The translations under genes and the position numbers were made by a program. Shown piece after piece: positions 13,906-32,595 of a DNA stretch of 39,171 nt. The stretch lies in the IMG/VR virus record IMGVR_UViG_3300044911_003700, positions 1 to 39,171 of that record, one strand, 5' to 3'. Below the pieces are notes generated by a model. That model had not been told where the DNA came from and did no database searches. It was given only the letters and a program-made list of their open reading frames with translations. This DNA is from a virus. Position 1 is the stretch's first letter; every line of letters starts with the position of its first letter.

Positions 13906-14089
13906 AGTAGCGCCAAGTGCCAATGATGCCCCCCGCGATCGCGGCAAGGCCAGCGGCAAGCATAATTACATCCCCAGCGCGAATTTGCGCCAACATTACT
14001 AAAAAGACCCCATAGCCTAGGCTGTGGGGTCTTTGCTTTGACCATTCAAAAGCCGCCTGGATGGCGGCCAACACCCGCATTAAAGTCAT
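13895..14089 (-). CDS. small membrane protein, holin-like in size
   Basis: The 64-residue product has two hydrophobic stretches (LGYGVFLVMLAQIRAG and VIMLAAGLAAIAGGIIGTW) and a basic end (WRYFKT). Its ATG overlaps the stop of the upstream 191-residue gene as ATGA, good evidence for translation. Oddly, a strong bidirectional terminator (14003-14034) lies inside the reading frame, so expression may be limited or attenuated. Alternatively the real product begins at a Met after the hairpin (33 residues). Size and two membrane spans would suit a holin, but no endolysin is near; function is inference. Confidence 0.5.
   Translation of the reverse strand: MTLMRVLAAIQAAFEWSKQRPHSLGYGVFLVMLAQIRAGDVIMLAAGLAAIAGGIIGTWRYFKT
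14003..14034. terminator. bidirectional terminator between tail operon and membrane operon
   Basis: AAAGACCCCA pairs with TGGGGTCTTT, and an inner AGCC with GGCT, giving a near-perfect two-part stem. T-runs follow on both strands (CTTTGCTTTG on plus; TCTTTTTAG on minus). It ends the plus-strand tail operon and sits within the last minus-strand frame. Confidence 0.85.
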
Positions 14090-21696: not shown

Positions 21697-21744
21697 TTAT
21701 TTGTGACATCCGATAGACTGGGGCTATGCACTCTCGTTAGAGAG

Positions 21745-22608
21745 ATGGACATTGACGTAAAGCGCTTATCAGATGAACTTCTCGAAATCCGGATGCGCTA
21801 CACCGGGGAGGAGACCCAGCACTTTTTGTTAGCCTCAGACATTCACCTGGATAACCCAAAGTGCGATCGCAAGCTATTCTTTTCTCACCTCGATAAAATG
21901 AAGGCTCTCGGTGGTAGAGCCTTATTTTTTGGCGACGTGCTATGCCTGATGCAGGGCAAACGCGACAAGCGCGGCAGCAAGTCCAGCATCCGCCCCGAGC
22001 ACCAGGGGGCCAATTATTTTGACTTGGTATTCAAAGAGTCTGCCGATATTCTTGGCCCCTACGGCAAAGAAATTTTGATGATGGGCAATGGCAACCACGA
22101 AACTGCCATTATCAACAATCAAGAGGTGGACCCACTCGCTAACGTAGTGCAGCAGATGCGCGATCGCCATAAGGCGGTTACTGAGCACATGGGTTACCAG
22201 GGCTGGGTGCGCTTTGTGTTCTACAAGCAGCGCGGCAATGGCGTTGAGAAGGTGCGACGCTGCACCCTGTTTTTTCACCATGGCGCCTGGGGCGGCATTG
22301 TCACCAAAGGCACCATGGGCGGCGGTCGCTATGCCAGCATCGCCCCGGATGCCGACATTATCGTCAATGGCCATAACCACGAACGCAGCATTGTCAGCCA
22401 CCCTTGCTATCGCTTGGCGGAGACCGGCAAGGTAAAGGTAACCCCGCGATACCATGTACAGACCGGCACCTACAAAGAAGAATTTGAAGGCGGTAATGGC
22501 TGGGCGGTGGAGCGCATTGTCATGCCCAAAAGTTTAGGCGGCGTTTGGCTGAAGCTTACCCCCGATCGCCAGTCAGGCGTTACCGTATCGCTAGAGCCCG
22601 CTGTCTGA
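21745..22608 (+). CDS. calcineurin-like metallophosphoesterase
   Basis: The 287-residue protein has the complete calcineurin-like motif set: Asp32 and His34 in SDIHLD, Asp64 in FFGD, GNGNHE (Asn117, His118), an HH in FFHHG near residue 178, and GHNHE near 213. The family hydrolyses phosphomono- or diesters with two metal ions, including phage Mre11/SbcD-like nucleases and DNA-repair enzymes. A GTG at 21703 would add 14 residues, but a possible promoter (TTGTGA, then TATGCA) lies there, so I choose the ATG at 21745. It is convergent with the integrase gene, overlapping by 18 bases. Confidence 0.85.
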   Translation: MDIDVKRLSDELLEIRMRYTGEETQHFLLASDIHLDNPKCDRKLFFSHLDKMKALGGRALFFGDVLCLMQGKRDKRGSKSSIRPEHQGANYFDLVFKESADILGPYGKEILMMGNGNHETAIINNQEVDPLANVVQQMRDRHKAVTEHMGYQGWVRFVFYKQRGNGVEKVRRCTLFFHHGAWGGIVTKGTMGGGRYASIAPDADIIVNGHNHERSIVSHPCYRLAETGKVKVTPRYHVQTGTYKEEFEGGNGWAVERIVMPKSLGGVWLKLTPDRQSGVTVSLEPAV

Positions 22609-23931
22609 CGGTTGCTTATTGGCAATAAGCTTTAACCGCACCTCCACCACTTCATTTCCCTGCAAAATCACCCGCTCCACCAATTCCGCGTAGACTTCCC
22701 GACGCCTTACCACCGGCAATAAGTTCAGGTCCGCCTGGGCGATCGCCATTGTTTTTTCCCGGAGCTCTTGCTGGTTAGCGCTGACATGGCTTGCCATTCC
22801 TGCCAAGTTTTGTAGCTCCGCCTCGATGGCAGCAATTTCTTCGGCGATCGCCGCCCGGTGGGCCAAAGGTCGAAGTGCTTCTAGTTCTCGCTCCAGCGCG
22901 ATCGCCTGCGGGTTCACCGTCGAGGGCTGTAGCATATCCGCCGCGATCGCCTCGGCGGCCTCTACCAACGCCTCCTGAATGGCTGCTTCAATGGCATCCT
23001 GGCGGCAAGAACGGGTGTAGGAGCATTCCCGGTCATGGTAGTCAGCTTTGGCCGCACAGGCAAAATAGCGATGGCCCCGGCGGATAAGCGCACGGCACCG
23101 GCAGCCACAAACACAGGACACAATAGGCGGCACCGCATGGATGCGTCCTTGATTGTTGCCGCGCAACTGACGGTTGAGGCTAATCAGGTATTCAATACGC
23201 TTGTACTCTTCTTCGGTGATCAGTGCTGGGTGTGTGTTGTAGCGCCATTCATCAGTTTTGGCATAGTGCAAATGCCCTCGTAGGGCAGCACTACGCAGCC
23301 ACCACCGCCAACCCGCTCGAGACTTATAAAACCCGTAGCGCCCCTCCATGTGGGCTGACAATGCCATCAGGTTGCCGTGCTCTAGGTAAAATTCTATCGC
23401 CGCCCTTGCCTTTGCCCACTCTGGCCCCGGCTCATAGCGGCTACTATCCGGCGATCGCTGGTAGCCAAAGGGAGGCGGGCCACACATGGGGCGCCCCTGT
23501 CGCCTCATCTGGGCATAGGCGCGCTGGATGCGCTCGCCTAGTTCTACCGAATAGTAGTGGGCCATCAGCGACTTAACGCCAGTGGTGAGCAGCCCTGAGG
23601 CGGTCTGTAGCGTGATCTCCTGGCCGGTGGTTAGCTCCTTCACTTGTACGCCCGCCGCCTCCAATTGGGCCAAACTCTCCATCGAATAAACCGTATCCCG
23701 TGCCCACCGCGTCCACTCAATGACCCATACTGTAACTTGATGACGTTGACCACGGAGGTCCAATGCCCGTTCTACCATGCGCAAAAATTCAGGGCGATCG
23801 CGCCGGCGCCCTGACAAATTTTCAGCAAACAGTTCATCAAACTCAAGCTGTTGCTGAAATTGCTGCATCTGTAATTCCAGGCTTTGCTCTTCAGTCGATA
23901 CCCGCCCGTAGCAAAGTTGATAGTGTGCCAT
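22591..23931 (-). CDS. large serine recombinase (integrase), XisF-like
   Basis: The 446-residue protein starts at an ATG with GGAGAGGGG eight bases upstream. The resolvase domain has YGRVSTEEQ with catalytic Ser12 and Arg10, plus WVIEWTRWARDT. The Recombinase domain and a zinc-ribbon with Cys ligands (CVCGCRCRAL...YFACAAK...CSYTRSC) follow, then a coiled coil (EELEALRPLAHRAAIAEEIA type, 350-400). Length and order match serine integrases, including cyanobacterial XisF/XisI excision enzymes and phage phiC31-type integrases. It integrates and excises the phage between attP and attB. A 40-bp palindrome stands 50 bp upstream of its start. Confidence 0.9.
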   Translation of the reverse strand: MAHYQLCYGRVSTEEQSLELQMQQFQQQLEFDELFAENLSGRRRDRPEFLRMVERALDLRGQRHQVTVWVIEWTRWARDTVYSMESLAQLEAAGVQVKELTTGQEITLQTASGLLTTGVKSLMAHYYSVELGERIQRAYAQMRRQGRPMCGPPPFGYQRSPDSSRYEPGPEWAKARAAIEFYLEHGNLMALSAHMEGRYGFYKSRAGWRWWLRSAALRGHLHYAKTDEWRYNTHPALITEEEYKRIEYLISLNRQLRGNNQGRIHAVPPIVSCVCGCRCRALIRRGHRYFACAAKADYHDRECSYTRSCRQDAIEAAIQEALVEAAEAIAADMLQPSTVNPQAIALERELEALRPLAHRAAIAEEIAAIEAELQNLAGMASHVSANQQELREKTMAIAQADLNLLPVVRRREVYAELVERVILQGNEVVEVRLKLIANKQPSDSGL

Positions 23932-23980
23932 GGTCAATCCCCTCTCCAATTTCAGCGTACTACGCCGCATCTAAAGGGAG

Positions 23981-24020
23981 GTGCCATGGTGAGAATTGCT
24001 CAGAGTTCTAGCTATGGCAC
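23981..24020. other. candidate attP, 40-bp imperfect inverted repeat
   Basis: GTGCCATGGTGAGAATTG on the left pairs with the complement of GAGTTCTAGCTATGGCAC on the right; the outer 17 bases match in 13 positions, including perfect 7-bp ends (GTGCCAT/ATGGCAC). The centre falls at T24000/C24001, a non-palindromic dinucleotide as used by serine integrases. It sits between the integrase and a divergent gene. It could instead be an operator for the neighbouring RHH-like protein. Confidence 0.5.
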
Positions 24021-24077: not shown

Positions 24078-24302
24078 ATGGCTTGGCGTCCCCAGGCTTG
24101 CTTAGATAACTTAAAACCCAAGGCGCCACGCTATGACGAGCATAAAAAGCGCGGGCAACTTATCTTAACCCCCACCGCATGGGATATTCTCAACACCCTA
24201 GCGAAAGAGGCAGGCTTATCCCGCTCTGAATTTGTGGAGCAACTGGCCAGGGGTGAATTGAACCTCAGTGGCGGTATCGTTACTCGAAAAACTCCCGCAT
24301 AA
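24078..24302 (+). CDS. ribbon-helix-helix-like regulator
   Basis: The 74-residue product starts at an ATG with GGAGG four bases upstream. The core KKRGQLILTPTAWDILNTLA, then KEAGLSRSEFVEQLARGE, has the short strand and two-helix pattern of ribbon-helix-helix DNA-binding proteins. It is divergent from the integrase and may regulate it, possibly through the 40-bp palindrome. The last 23 bases overlap the convergent terminase gene. Confidence 0.7.
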   Translation: MAWRPQACLDNLKPKAPRYDEHKKRGQLILTPTAWDILNTLAKEAGLSRSEFVEQLARGELNLSGGIVTRKTPA

Positions 24303-26571
24303 TTTCGCTCTGGGTCTTGCTGTAGTCAGACTTAAGCTCTATCGGCCCTGTGGGCTCTTCTGTGCCCTCTTCTACCACCTCTGGCTCTGGCAGGCTATAG
24401 AATTCACCCGAGGCGGCTGATAGCTTACACAGTGCCCCCACAACCGACGCTACTGCATCGGCAATATCTTTATGGCTATCCACGTCACTACCTAAGGCGG
24501 TACGCGGGGCATCAATCCGTCCGGTCGATAGCCTCACCAATTTCCGCAATTCCCCGAACAGGATCGGGTCGATGCGGTACACCAACTGTCTGGCATAAAT
24601 AAGCGCCTTTAGTTCATCGTAATAACCTGGGTTACGGTCCACCGAAAAATTCTGGCTGCTAACGCCATAGTGGTATAGCAGCTGTCGAGCCGTAGCGCTA
24701 TTGAATTGGTCGAACGTCACCCGCGCGATCGCAAACCCTAGCCGCTTGCTCAGCAACAATACAAATTCCACCGGTGTCTGCAAGTCTATCTCCGCCTGGC
24801 GGATGTCCACAGTTGTGGAATCGCCGCCCTCCCAGTTAATGCGCTGCAACTGGCCGCGTCCAGTAAAGTGGGCCGCCTTCCAGCGAAAGGATAGGTCCAG
24901 TACCGGTATCAGTCGGTCCGCGCGATCGCCCACCGGCTCCAGGTGGGCCATGGCAAACCCGGCACTATCACCCGATAGCCCCAGGTCGATATGAATGTAA
25001 TACTCGCGTTCGGGCTTGCCCTTGAACCAGTTGGCTAACATCGGAAAGCCATAGCTATCTAGCACCACGTCACCAAATAGGTCGCGCTCTAGGATGGGGT
25101 CAGGGCTGCGATCGCTACCCGTCACGCCATAGCGCTTCAGTAGGTCGGATGTCCCCCCACTGGCATGACGCACAATTAGTTCAGGCGATCTAAAGTAGGC
25201 TTCAGTCGCCGCCCGGGGTTGGGCTGCTAACTTAGCCGCCGATCCCTCTGGGTCCCTAATAAATTCAGTTTCAAAGTCTTTGTATTCCAGGTGGGGCACG
25301 ACTTCCCAGGTGGGGCGACGCACCACAAATAATTCAGGGAACCGTCCCTCCTGGTGGGCTTCAATCAACTGCTCCTGCGGGTCCGATACGCTACGCGGAA
25401 AGCTGGTCAGAAAACCTTTCCATGCCTTTCTAAAGCGGGTGCGGCAGGAGGTGACAAAGGTATTGAACAATGCCTCCGCCGTGGCCCCCTGGGCTTCTGA
25501 CTCTAGCCCTGCAAACTCGCTAATTACAAAGGCCAGTAGGTTGAACCCCTCCGCGCTACTGCTAATCAGCGGTAGGTTGTGGATGCGGATATTGTGCGGT
25601 AGCTCAATATAGTCCGCCGCGTCGGTTGCTTTCTTGATATACCGGTCAACGTCTGCGATCGCAAACTCTGAACGCGCCAGGTGACTTTTCAGCCAGGTGC
25701 AGGTGCGCAATCGGTTCTTTAGCTTGGTGAAGGTTACCCGCCGTGTCTGGCGCAAGGTAGGTGAGGCTAGGGCAATATCAATGGGTTCCTGGGGGGCAAG
25801 CCCTAGAAATTCCTGAGGGTCCCTCAGGCATAGCAGCACATGGGCAAACCACACAAGGCAGACGGAGGCCAAGGTATCTTTGCCGCTGTTGTGGTGGAGG
25901 ATACCCTGGCTGTCAAAGTAGCAATGGGTGTCAGCCACCGTCAGGTCATAGTAGGCACCGACGCCCATGGGCACAATTGAGGCGATCGCTGTCCATCTAT
26001 GCTGGGTTAATAGCCGCCCTTTTGTTAGATCGTAATAGGCGCCAACGTGCAATTGCACCACCGGCATCCACCCCCCAGGCGAGAGGCATCGGTGGTTAGC
26101 CGTTGCTACAAACGATCGCCCATCTGCCAACGTCACCCGGTATAGTTCATCGGTCCCCTTGCAGTAAACCGGCGAAGTATCCTGCAAACAATAGCGATCG
26201 CCGTCCCAGCTCAATACTTGTAGCCCAATACCGCGATCGCTCCATTCTTTAACCGTCAGTGTCTCCCCACTGCGATAATCCTTCAAGCGTTCGTCAGGGC
26301 CAAGGCACCCTTTGCCGTAGCACAAGATGCCACAATTGTAAAGAGTTGGCGGGTTTTGAGTAAATAGTGCCTTAGCATCCGCCGCCGTGGTGCCTAGAAA
26401 CTGGCTTAGGTCCTGTTGCTGCACGTCCCAGGGGGTAACGTCCAGGTAGGCGCGGCAAAACTCACCCAGGGGTAAGGGGTCCTCTAGCCAAGGGGAGTCA
26501 CCCGCCGTTGGTTCCTGGCCCTGGCTCATTAGCTCCAATAGCGCGATCGCGTTACCCTGCTTTCTCTGCAT
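24280..26571 (-). CDS. terL: terminase large subunit with mini-intein
   Basis: The frame encodes 763 residues from the first ATG (26571); a TTG at 26607 would add 12. The packaging ATPase Walker A motif is split: CYGKG is followed by a 140-residue intein, then SGKDTLAS, so splicing restores GKGSGKDT. Downstream are a Walker B-like segment (NLLAFVISEFAG) and the RNase H-like nuclease: HIDLGLSGDSAGFA, VTFDQFNSAT, HKDIADAVASVV with acidic metal ligands. The mature protein is about 623 residues. It packages DNA into proheads with the portal. It overlaps the small-subunit gene by 20 bases. Confidence 0.95.
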   Translation of the reverse strand: MQRKQGNAIALLELMSQGQEPTAGDSPWLEDPLPLGEFCRAYLDVTPWDVQQQDLSQFLGTTAADAKALFTQNPPTLYNCGILCYGKGCLGPDERLKDYRSGETLTVKEWSDRGIGLQVLSWDGDRYCLQDTSPVYCKGTDELYRVTLADGRSFVATANHRCLSPGGWMPVVQLHVGAYYDLTKGRLLTQHRWTAIASIVPMGVGAYYDLTVADTHCYFDSQGILHHNSGKDTLASVCLVWFAHVLLCLRDPQEFLGLAPQEPIDIALASPTLRQTRRVTFTKLKNRLRTCTWLKSHLARSEFAIADVDRYIKKATDAADYIELPHNIRIHNLPLISSSAEGFNLLAFVISEFAGLESEAQGATAEALFNTFVTSCRTRFRKAWKGFLTSFPRSVSDPQEQLIEAHQEGRFPELFVVRRPTWEVVPHLEYKDFETEFIRDPEGSAAKLAAQPRAATEAYFRSPELIVRHASGGTSDLLKRYGVTGSDRSPDPILERDLFGDVVLDSYGFPMLANWFKGKPEREYYIHIDLGLSGDSAGFAMAHLEPVGDRADRLIPVLDLSFRWKAAHFTGRGQLQRINWEGGDSTTVDIRQAEIDLQTPVEFVLLLSKRLGFAIARVTFDQFNSATARQLLYHYGVSSQNFSVDRNPGYYDELKALIYARQLVYRIDPILFGELRKLVRLSTGRIDAPRTALGSDVDSHKDIADAVASVVGALCKLSAASGEFYSLPEPEVVEEGTEEPTGPIELKSDYSKTQSEIMREFFE
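25888..26307 (-). mobile_element. mini-intein in the terminase Walker A motif
   Basis: The insertion begins with Cys (CLGPDERL) and ends HHN, followed by Ser of the extein. Block B is present (SFVATANHRCLSPGGW; Thr and His of the TxxH motif), as are block F/G (YYDLTVADTHCYFDSQGILHHN). At 140 residues it lacks any homing-endonuclease domain. VGAYYDLT occurs twice, about 30 residues apart, which may mark the deletion scar of a lost endonuclease. Splice-site residues all look functional. Confidence 0.9.
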
Positions 26572-27007
26572 GGCGTTGTAGGATGCGGTGGAAGGTTTGC
26601 GCGTCAAAGTCTGGCCGGTTTAGTAGCGCGATCGTCGCCTCCTCCAGCGTGGTCGGGTTCATCTCCCGGTATAGCTGCAGGTACTTAGCCAGCGCTGTGG
26701 CGACGCCCTCCAGCGACTTCGCTTCTGTCTCATTGACAGCACCCGCCAAAGTCTTGATGGTGCGGGTCATATAGTCGTTAACGTCGAGCCCGTCGATGGT
26801 AACCTTGGCCCCCGCCGCGATCGCTGTTGTAACCACTTGGTTAACGCTACGGGTAGGCGTTCGGCTCAAATTATTCTCTTTGACTACCCGCTTAACGGTG
26901 CCAGTGGAGACGCCACAAATTTGGGCGATGTCCTCAATGGTATTACTGGACTCGGCATAAAGCTTTTTGATGCGGGCTTGGATCAACTCTGGAGTCTTGG
27001 CAGGCAT
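26552..27007 (-). CDS. terS: terminase small subunit
   Basis: The 151-residue product lies immediately upstream of the large subunit and overlaps it. It has an N-terminal helix-turn-helix (NTIEDIAQICGVSTGTVKRV, then VKENNLSRTP), the usual DNA-binding module of small terminase subunits, and a helical oligomerisation region (AGAVNETEAKSLEGVATALA). It recognises the packaging site and activates the large subunit. Just upstream (27026-27063) are two palindromes that may be its target. No clear Shine-Dalgarno; the start is the first ATG. Confidence 0.85.
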   Translation of the reverse strand: MPAKTPELIQARIKKLYAESSNTIEDIAQICGVSTGTVKRVVKENNLSRTPTRSVNQVVTTAIAAGAKVTIDGLDVNDYMTRTIKTLAGAVNETEAKSLEGVATALAKYLQLYREMNPTTLEEATIALLNRPDFDAQTFHRILQRHAEKAG

Positions 27008-31230: not shown

Positions 31231-32595
31231 ATGGGCTTGATTAGACTCACTATTGATACAGCCATGGATGACATCGTGTCGTTGGAGCAGGCCCGTCAAT
31301 TTGTCTATTGCAAGAGTAGAGACAAGTTAAATTACAAAAGCGTCAAAAGTTTCCACTTGGCTTTGTGGAAAGTCAGCAAGATGCAGGGCATTGAGCCTGA
31401 CATCCTTGAGGGCTTGCGTAGAGTATTGAAATCTCGAAAAATATCGCTACAGTTTCTAGCGAAGATTGTCGAGCAGGCTTTACTCCCAGGGGGCACTCAA
31501 AGGTTTATCCTTCCAGAAAGCCGTGAGCAAGTGCAAGAGCCTGTAAACAGCGCAAGTGAAAGCGGCTTAAAGGTTGTTGACGTAGGCAAAGATAACCCCG
31601 GCGAAAGCTTTGTGGCGCTTGAGGGAACTGACAATGCAACCTTTGCAAGCCCGTTTGACTCTATTCGCCATTTTGATGGAACCCATTTGGACCCCGAGCT
31701 CCAAGAATATTGGCTAGCCAGAGAATTGCAATCATTCCTGGAGTATGGAACTTGGCAAAATTTTGAGGAGTTAATTGACCGAGCGGCCCAAAGCTTTGAA
31801 ACATATAAGGTTCATCATGGGCTTGAACTCTCCCGTAAAGACCATTTTAGTGAACTCACTAAAATGGTCTCCTTAGGGAGTCGTGCGATGCGGGAAATCA
31901 CGGATTACCGACTCTCTCGCCATGCTTGCCATCTAATCGCCCAGTGCGGAGACCCTGAAAAACCAAGAATTGCGGCGGCACAAGCTTATTTCAGCATCCA
32001 GACGCGCCGGGCCGAGTTGATGGATGCAGGGTTGACCAGGATTGAGCGGACTCAGGAGATTAACAAGTTAATCACGGGGCTAGAAGAGAAGGTTAGCAAA
32101 AACTCTGAAGTGGTTGAGGAAGGCATTGAGCAGTTAGCCGATCAGATTGACTCCCTCACAAACACCTTTCTGTCGGCCATGCAAGGATTGAGTCAACGGA
32201 TAAGTGAGATGAAGGACGGGGCTAATGCTGGGCGCGTCAAAGGCTTTACCAGATCTGTCAAGCAGAAAGCCGCAAAATATCTCTATGAGTTTACTAAGCT
32301 AAATTTTCCCAATACACCAGGGTGTGATCTAATAGATCGGACAACGATTGTCAGAGCCGATGGCACCTGGACAGATGCCTGTGATTTTGATCATTGGGAT
32401 ACTGCCACTATCTGCAACAAGGTAATCAACTGTGTCCCCATGAGCAGAGAAACCCATCGCAGGAAAACATACAAAAGAGCTGACGAACTGACTGACGAGG
32501 AAAAATCAGTCATCAAGGAATTTGTAAGTTTCGTTAAAAGACGGGAAGAGCAAGAGCTTTGCGTATCACATCAAATCAAATTGTTTGACGTGTAG
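31231..32595 (+). CDS. DinD-like protein with HNH-like C-terminus
   Basis: The 454-residue protein has a central domain matching DNA-damage-inducible DinD: HFSELTKMVSLGSRAMREIT, DYRLSRHACHLIAQCGDPEK, RIAAAQAYFSIQTRRAEL (about residues 205-275). An N-terminal 100 residues are basic and unassigned; a coiled coil (EEKVSKNSEVVEEGIEQLAD) follows. The C-terminal 120 residues (ACDFDHWDTATICN then NCVPMSRETHRRK) have an HNH-nuclease-like D-H...N...H pattern. I saw no HIP1 octamer in the gene, unlike its neighbours, suggesting recent transfer. A nuclease-type anti-host or defence role is possible; activity is unproven. Confidence 0.7.
   Translation: MGLIRLTIDTAMDDIVSLEQARQFVYCKSRDKLNYKSVKSFHLALWKVSKMQGIEPDILEGLRRVLKSRKISLQFLAKIVEQALLPGGTQRFILPESREQVQEPVNSASESGLKVVDVGKDNPGESFVALEGTDNATFASPFDSIRHFDGTHLDPELQEYWLARELQSFLEYGTWQNFEELIDRAAQSFETYKVHHGLELSRKDHFSELTKMVSLGSRAMREITDYRLSRHACHLIAQCGDPEKPRIAAAQAYFSIQTRRAELMDAGLTRIERTQEINKLITGLEEKVSKNSEVVEEGIEQLADQIDSLTNTFLSAMQGLSQRISEMKDGANAGRVKGFTRSVKQKAAKYLYEFTKLNFPNTPGCDLIDRTTIVRADGTWTDACDFDHWDTATICNKVINCVPMSRETHRRKTYKRADELTDEEKSVIKEFVSFVKRREEQELCVSHQIKLFDV

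Follow-up and report, generated by a model that had tools for sequence, protein, structure and literature searches.

A 40-bp imperfect inverted repeat located upstream of an integrase gene in the window (the whole stretch of 39,171 nucleotides analyzed here) is very probably the attP site of that enzyme, an XisF-like large serine integrase (Table 1). The initial annotation had described a palindrome (GTGCCATGGTGAGAATTGCTCAGAGTTCTAGCTATGGCAC) with 7-bp perfect ends and a central TC. This was confirmed, and the distance to the integrase start, given there as 50 bp, was measured as 49 bp. The integrase-side half reads AGCAATTCTCACCATGGCAC and the terminase-side half GTGCCATAGCTAGAACTCTG; 26 of the 40 bases, corresponding to 13 of the 20 half-site positions, are self-complementary. 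The proposed assignment as attP is the best-supported reading, as the site tracks the integrase and its inner arms co-vary with the DNA-reading segment of the protein. Counted against it were the lack of an integrated form in the collections scanned, the length of 40 bp and an intermediate arm placement. The candidate is an ordinary, expected kind of site, and it provides a concrete 40-bp attP candidate for an uncharacterized family of XisF-like phage integrases.

Table 1. Features in and around the candidate attP site (coordinates refer to the window).
Feature	Position	Strand	Basis or remark
Phosphoesterase / DNA repair exonuclease-like gene, integrase side of site	21703..22608	+	phrog_7339, 1.2e-15
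XisF-like large serine integrase, 446 aa	22591..23931	-	Pfam, NCBIfam, phrog_95 and A118 C-terminal domain matches
Short conserved element (GCGTAGTACGCT on integrase strand) between site and integrase start	23954..23965	-	Identical in clades A and B
Candidate attP, 40-bp imperfect inverted repeat	23981..24020	.	One per record, 14/14 records
Outer arm GTGCCAT, integrase-proximal half-site	23981..23987	+	GCCAT invariant in four site types
Predicted crossover dinucleotide TC (GA on integrase strand)	24000..24001	+	Dyad centre; crossover predicted from the family
Outer arm ATGGCAC, terminase-side half-site	24014..24020	-	ATGGC/GCCAT invariant in four site types
Small divergent protein, 74 aa, beyond site	24078..24302	+	Next to the site throughout clade A
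Terminase large subunit, far side of site	24280..26607	-	PHROGs terminase large subunit, 2e-11

The integrase starts with the ATG at 23931. A longer mechanically called reading frame starting at 23970 was rejected as unsupported, since all relatives begin with the same MAHYQLCYGRVS. Residues 7-147 match the Pfam Resolvase model (7e-19), and a YGRVS motif with Ser12 is invariant among the aligned relatives, consistent with an N-terminal resolvase-type catalytic domain with a serine nucleophile. A long C-terminal part comprising recombinase domain, zinc ribbon and coiled coil is likewise predicted: the family profile aligns residues 154-429 with the crystal structure of the C-terminal domain of the A118 integrase (E value 4e-05), and a cysteine cluster (C273-C309) is conserved, while the Pfam Recombinase model gave no match in the integrase at 0.001. 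In PHROGs the protein matches phrog_95, 'integrase' (3e-45). The best NCBIfam model was XisF, the recombinase of the fdxN element of heterocyst-forming cyanobacteria, which covers nearly the whole protein (7.7e-48). However, the score of 163.6 bits is below the equivalog cut-off of 375, so that an assignment as true XisF was rejected, and the integrase is phage-borne, whereas the XisF element interrupts a chromosomal gene. An AlphaFold model was set aside because of its mean pLDDT of 52. Judged from its sequence, the enzyme is a large serine integrase that is related to XisF yet distinct from it.

The symmetry of the site by itself is unremarkable in the window. At least 13 of 20 half-positions are complementary in 15 other 40-mers, although none of these has 7-bp perfect ends, and the 39 kb contain 145 inverted repeats that span 30-60 and end in perfect 7-bp arms. 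Such symmetry elsewhere would allow for a chance palindrome, but the same length and the same place are kept beside integrases that are only 67% identical and in records whose upstream DNA is unrelated, which makes coincidence highly improbable. It is thus conservation that carries the case. Related integrases were found in 13 IMG/VR contigs (67-98% identity, one of them a partial gene at 78%). The genome collection yielded no integrase relative above 35% identity and none from cyanobacteria, and no DNA relatives were found among named phages or plasmids. With up to one mismatch allowed, the pattern GYGCCAT-N26-ATGGCAC occurs exactly once in each of the 14 records (the window and the 13 contigs), always with the same 40-bp length and about 50 bp upstream of the integrase; three contigs have one end mismatch, and a reversed control pattern was absent from the 14 records.

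Four site types can be distinguished: type A in the window and contigs G001-G007, type B in G008 and G009, type C1 in G010 and G013, and type C2 in G011 and G012. The GCCAT/ATGGC motif occupies half-site positions 14-18 and is unchanged in all four. When one representative of each type was compared, 49 of 80 cells were complementary around the dyad centre, whereas other centres gave 13-33 nearly everywhere. The next best value of 40 belongs to a centre 26 bp downstream, at an extra GCCAT copy of clade C. Symmetry fades beyond half-site position 20, and symmetry and conservation both end at 40 bp. The conservation of the site exceeds chance.

Similar arrangements are known from characterized phages. 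In most phages attP adjoins int, and attP sites of serine integrases are characteristically 45-50 bp long (PMC5311408). The fit to attP claimed from symmetry and size holds for the dyad shape, but the symmetry alone is unexceptional and 40 bp is shorter than usual. In the Streptomyces phage phiJoe, an imperfect inverted repeat 18 bp upstream of int serves as attP, and a divergent gene follows on its far side (PMC5311408). The window shares with phiJoe the imperfect inverted repeat with a dinucleotide at its centre, its position upstream of a serine integrase and the divergent small gene; it differs in the distance (49 instead of 18 bp), in the central dinucleotide (TC/GA instead of GG), in the 40-bp length and in being known from sequence alone, whereas recombination has been demonstrated for phiJoe. 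For Listeria phage A118 (PMC3783163), the C-terminal recombinase and zinc-ribbon region can be aligned, and the pseudo-palindromic A118 site is contacted by a dimer. However, sequence similarity is weak, and the A118 site is about 50 bp long with the zinc-domain motif at half-site positions 16-24 in the P-type and 11-19 in the B-type site. The conserved arms described here, at positions 14-20, lie between the two.

A comparison of three contigs shows that the site is linked to the integrase. G013 and G009 have about 19 kb of common backbone (86-94%, with gaps). Their agreement is 97% in the 300-bp stretch upstream of the site, but drops to 67% both within the site and downstream of it. In contrast, G013 and G010 agree at 95% within the site and at 95% downstream, whereas the DNA upstream is unrelated (45%). 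The integrase and the palindrome of G013 match those of G010, and the switch point is in the outer palindrome arm. In G013 the site goes with the integrase rather than with the backbone, which indicates that it belongs to the integrase and not to a neighboring regulator. That G013 arose by integrase-mediated exchange was rejected, as the switch lies in the outer arm and not in the centre. Since serine recombinases cut at the centre, the same observation argues against a recombination site of other use, e.g. for DNA inversion, dimer resolution or module exchange between phages. Such a use would agree with the different genome places that the cassette occupies in different phages and with the absence of an integrated form from all collections searched, but two sites would be required for inversion or resolution and each record has a single one. 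This explanation is regarded as quite improbable.

The region between site and integrase start contains further short elements. The counterpart of the element at 23954..23965 is GTAGGCTAG-like in clade C; this element is possibly a promoter or operator. The outer arm recurs in direct orientation as GTGCCATGGT at 23925-23934, overlapping the integrase start codon, and in G004-G006 16 of 20 positions in this region agree with a half-site. This could reflect autoregulation of the integrase or merely the conserved MAH start of the protein. In clade C (G010, G011, G012 and G013) the extra GCCAT copy, CGCCATAGTAGG, lies between site and start codon and gives rise to a second partial dyad.

The palindrome might instead be only an operator, bound by a repressor or by the integrase itself and controlling integrase transcription, with recombination taking place elsewhere. 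Its location on the 5' side of the integrase gene, beside a small divergent gene, agrees with this, as does the arm copy at the start codon if it is a sign of autoregulation. However, the site follows the integrase rather than the backbone, the small gene is located elsewhere in clades B and C, the interior of the clade B site is inverted without the rest of the promoter region, and no second site-like sequence above background was detected in the site-bearing genomes. A role as operator only, which the initial annotation had named as a finding that would speak against attP, is weakened by the linkage to the integrase and is considered unlikely, whereas an attP site that doubles as an operator is compatible with the preferred assignment.

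Site and enzyme differ jointly between the clades. In A118, Tyr207 and Asn208 of the recombinase domain contact bases 9-11 of the half-site (PMC3783163); according to our own residue count on the profile alignment, they correspond to R205 and A206 of the integrase studied here. The segment aligned with the base-contacting helix of A118 reads YKSRAG in clade A, YKTRGG in clade B and GRNRTV in clade C, and the inner arms of the site are alike in A and B and different in C. This correlation over three clades suggests that the inner arms vary together with the DNA-reading residues of the integrase. Between G010 and G011, 436 of 437 integrase residues are identical, whereas the sites of these two contigs differ at nine of 40 positions, six of them within the central 8 bp. 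Such a pattern would be expected of a protein that recognizes the arms, with a match to attB required only at the crossover bases. The site clades, some with near-identical enzymes, represent a natural experiment on the bases read by the integrase.

The orientation of the site also differs. Clade A and clade B sites agree at 32 of 40 positions when one of them is inverted, but at only 23 of 40 directly; a score of 32 arose by chance in 0.16% or 0.0005% of trials, depending on which of two null models is applied. The DNA separating the site from the integrase start has the same orientation in both clades. By this comparison, the clade B site is flipped relative to the integrase, for which a small inversion between the two arms would be a simple cause. 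The shared central TC predicted earlier is accordingly found in clades A and B only with one site inverted, and not in clade C, where the central dinucleotide is TT (C1) or AA (C2). An inverted core between C1 and C2 was rejected, because only CCTGCAA agrees in the inverted register, which is too little on its own. A flip would result in opposite prophage polarity, and the flipped site raises the question of how the prophage is oriented. It may be proposed, tentatively and with more doubt than confidence, that integrase and attP form a portable cassette across otherwise different phage lineages in which attP flips while the unoriented dinucleotide is kept (GA to TC between A and B, TT to AA between C1 and C2); prophages at one and the same host site would then have opposite polarity. 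Two aspects are noteworthy for specialists: the flip of the site and its exchange together with the integrase as one unit.

The assumption that the window represents the free (circular) form of the phage holds, as all 14 copies of the site are intact and flanked on either side by phage DNA. The clade A contigs are circular permutations of each other, with G005 and G007 permuting one map, and G012 is a circular 74-kb assembly with an exact terminal overlap of 127 bases. The records fit unintegrated circular or permuted phage DNA. The suggested search for attL/attR hybrids was carried out and none were found; as the peptide-pattern scans were of limited reach and did not take in the cyanobacteria as a group, the absence of lysogens is weak evidence either way. 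No integrated copy, lysogen or attB was present in the collections scanned. Two look-alikes of clade A half-sites (L032 and L039) were rejected as coding-region coincidences at a gene start in phage contigs with unrelated genes and no further match, and 25 look-alikes of clade C half-sites as unrelated contigs, many of them at gene starts. The scan with clade B half-sites returned only the two known intact copies, and a terminase scan for clade A phages lacking the cassette gave only the seven known records.

The HIP1 motif provides an indication of the host. In the clade A phages (the window and G001-G007), GCGATCGC was found 883 times with 9.8 expected, and CGATCG 1259 times with 128 expected. 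Due to this strong enrichment, the clade A phages probably infect cyanobacteria. Clades B and C (G008-G013) avoid HIP1 (GCGATCGC 0 versus 7.6 expected, CGATCG 3 versus 94), and they share the integrase and some genes with clade A despite this opposite use.

By analogy with the serine integrase family, two integrase subunits would bind the two 20-bp half-sites, the outer GCCAT arms probably being bound by the zinc-ribbon domain and the inner arms by the recombinase domain. The bound attP would pair with a host attB that is bound in the same mode and has the same central dinucleotide. Cleavage is predicted at the central TC/GA with 2-bp overhangs, followed by rotation and rejoining. In this way the circular phage genome would become a prophage bordered by the integrase on one end and by the terminase side on the opposite end.

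In G009, G010 and G012, homologs of the 74-aa protein (41% identity) are located at a distance of 9-13 kb from the site; in analogy to phiJoe gp52, it may be guessed that the protein is a regulator or a recombination directionality factor. The phosphoesterase-like gene is convergent with the integrase, absent from G007 and located elsewhere in G009 and G010 (about 82% DNA identity). Based on this distribution, it behaves as a mobile accessory gene. The most perfect palindromes of the window are located at 14003-14034 and 31839-31870 (15 of 16 half-positions each), of which the former may be a terminator. The terminase contains an insert of about 140 amino acids (25884-26310), which starts with CLGPDE, ends with HHN before a serine and falls exactly in the Walker A motif, where relatives read GKGAGKDT. 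The terminases of G001, G003, G005 and G007 are without this insert, which by its sequence looks like a mini-intein.
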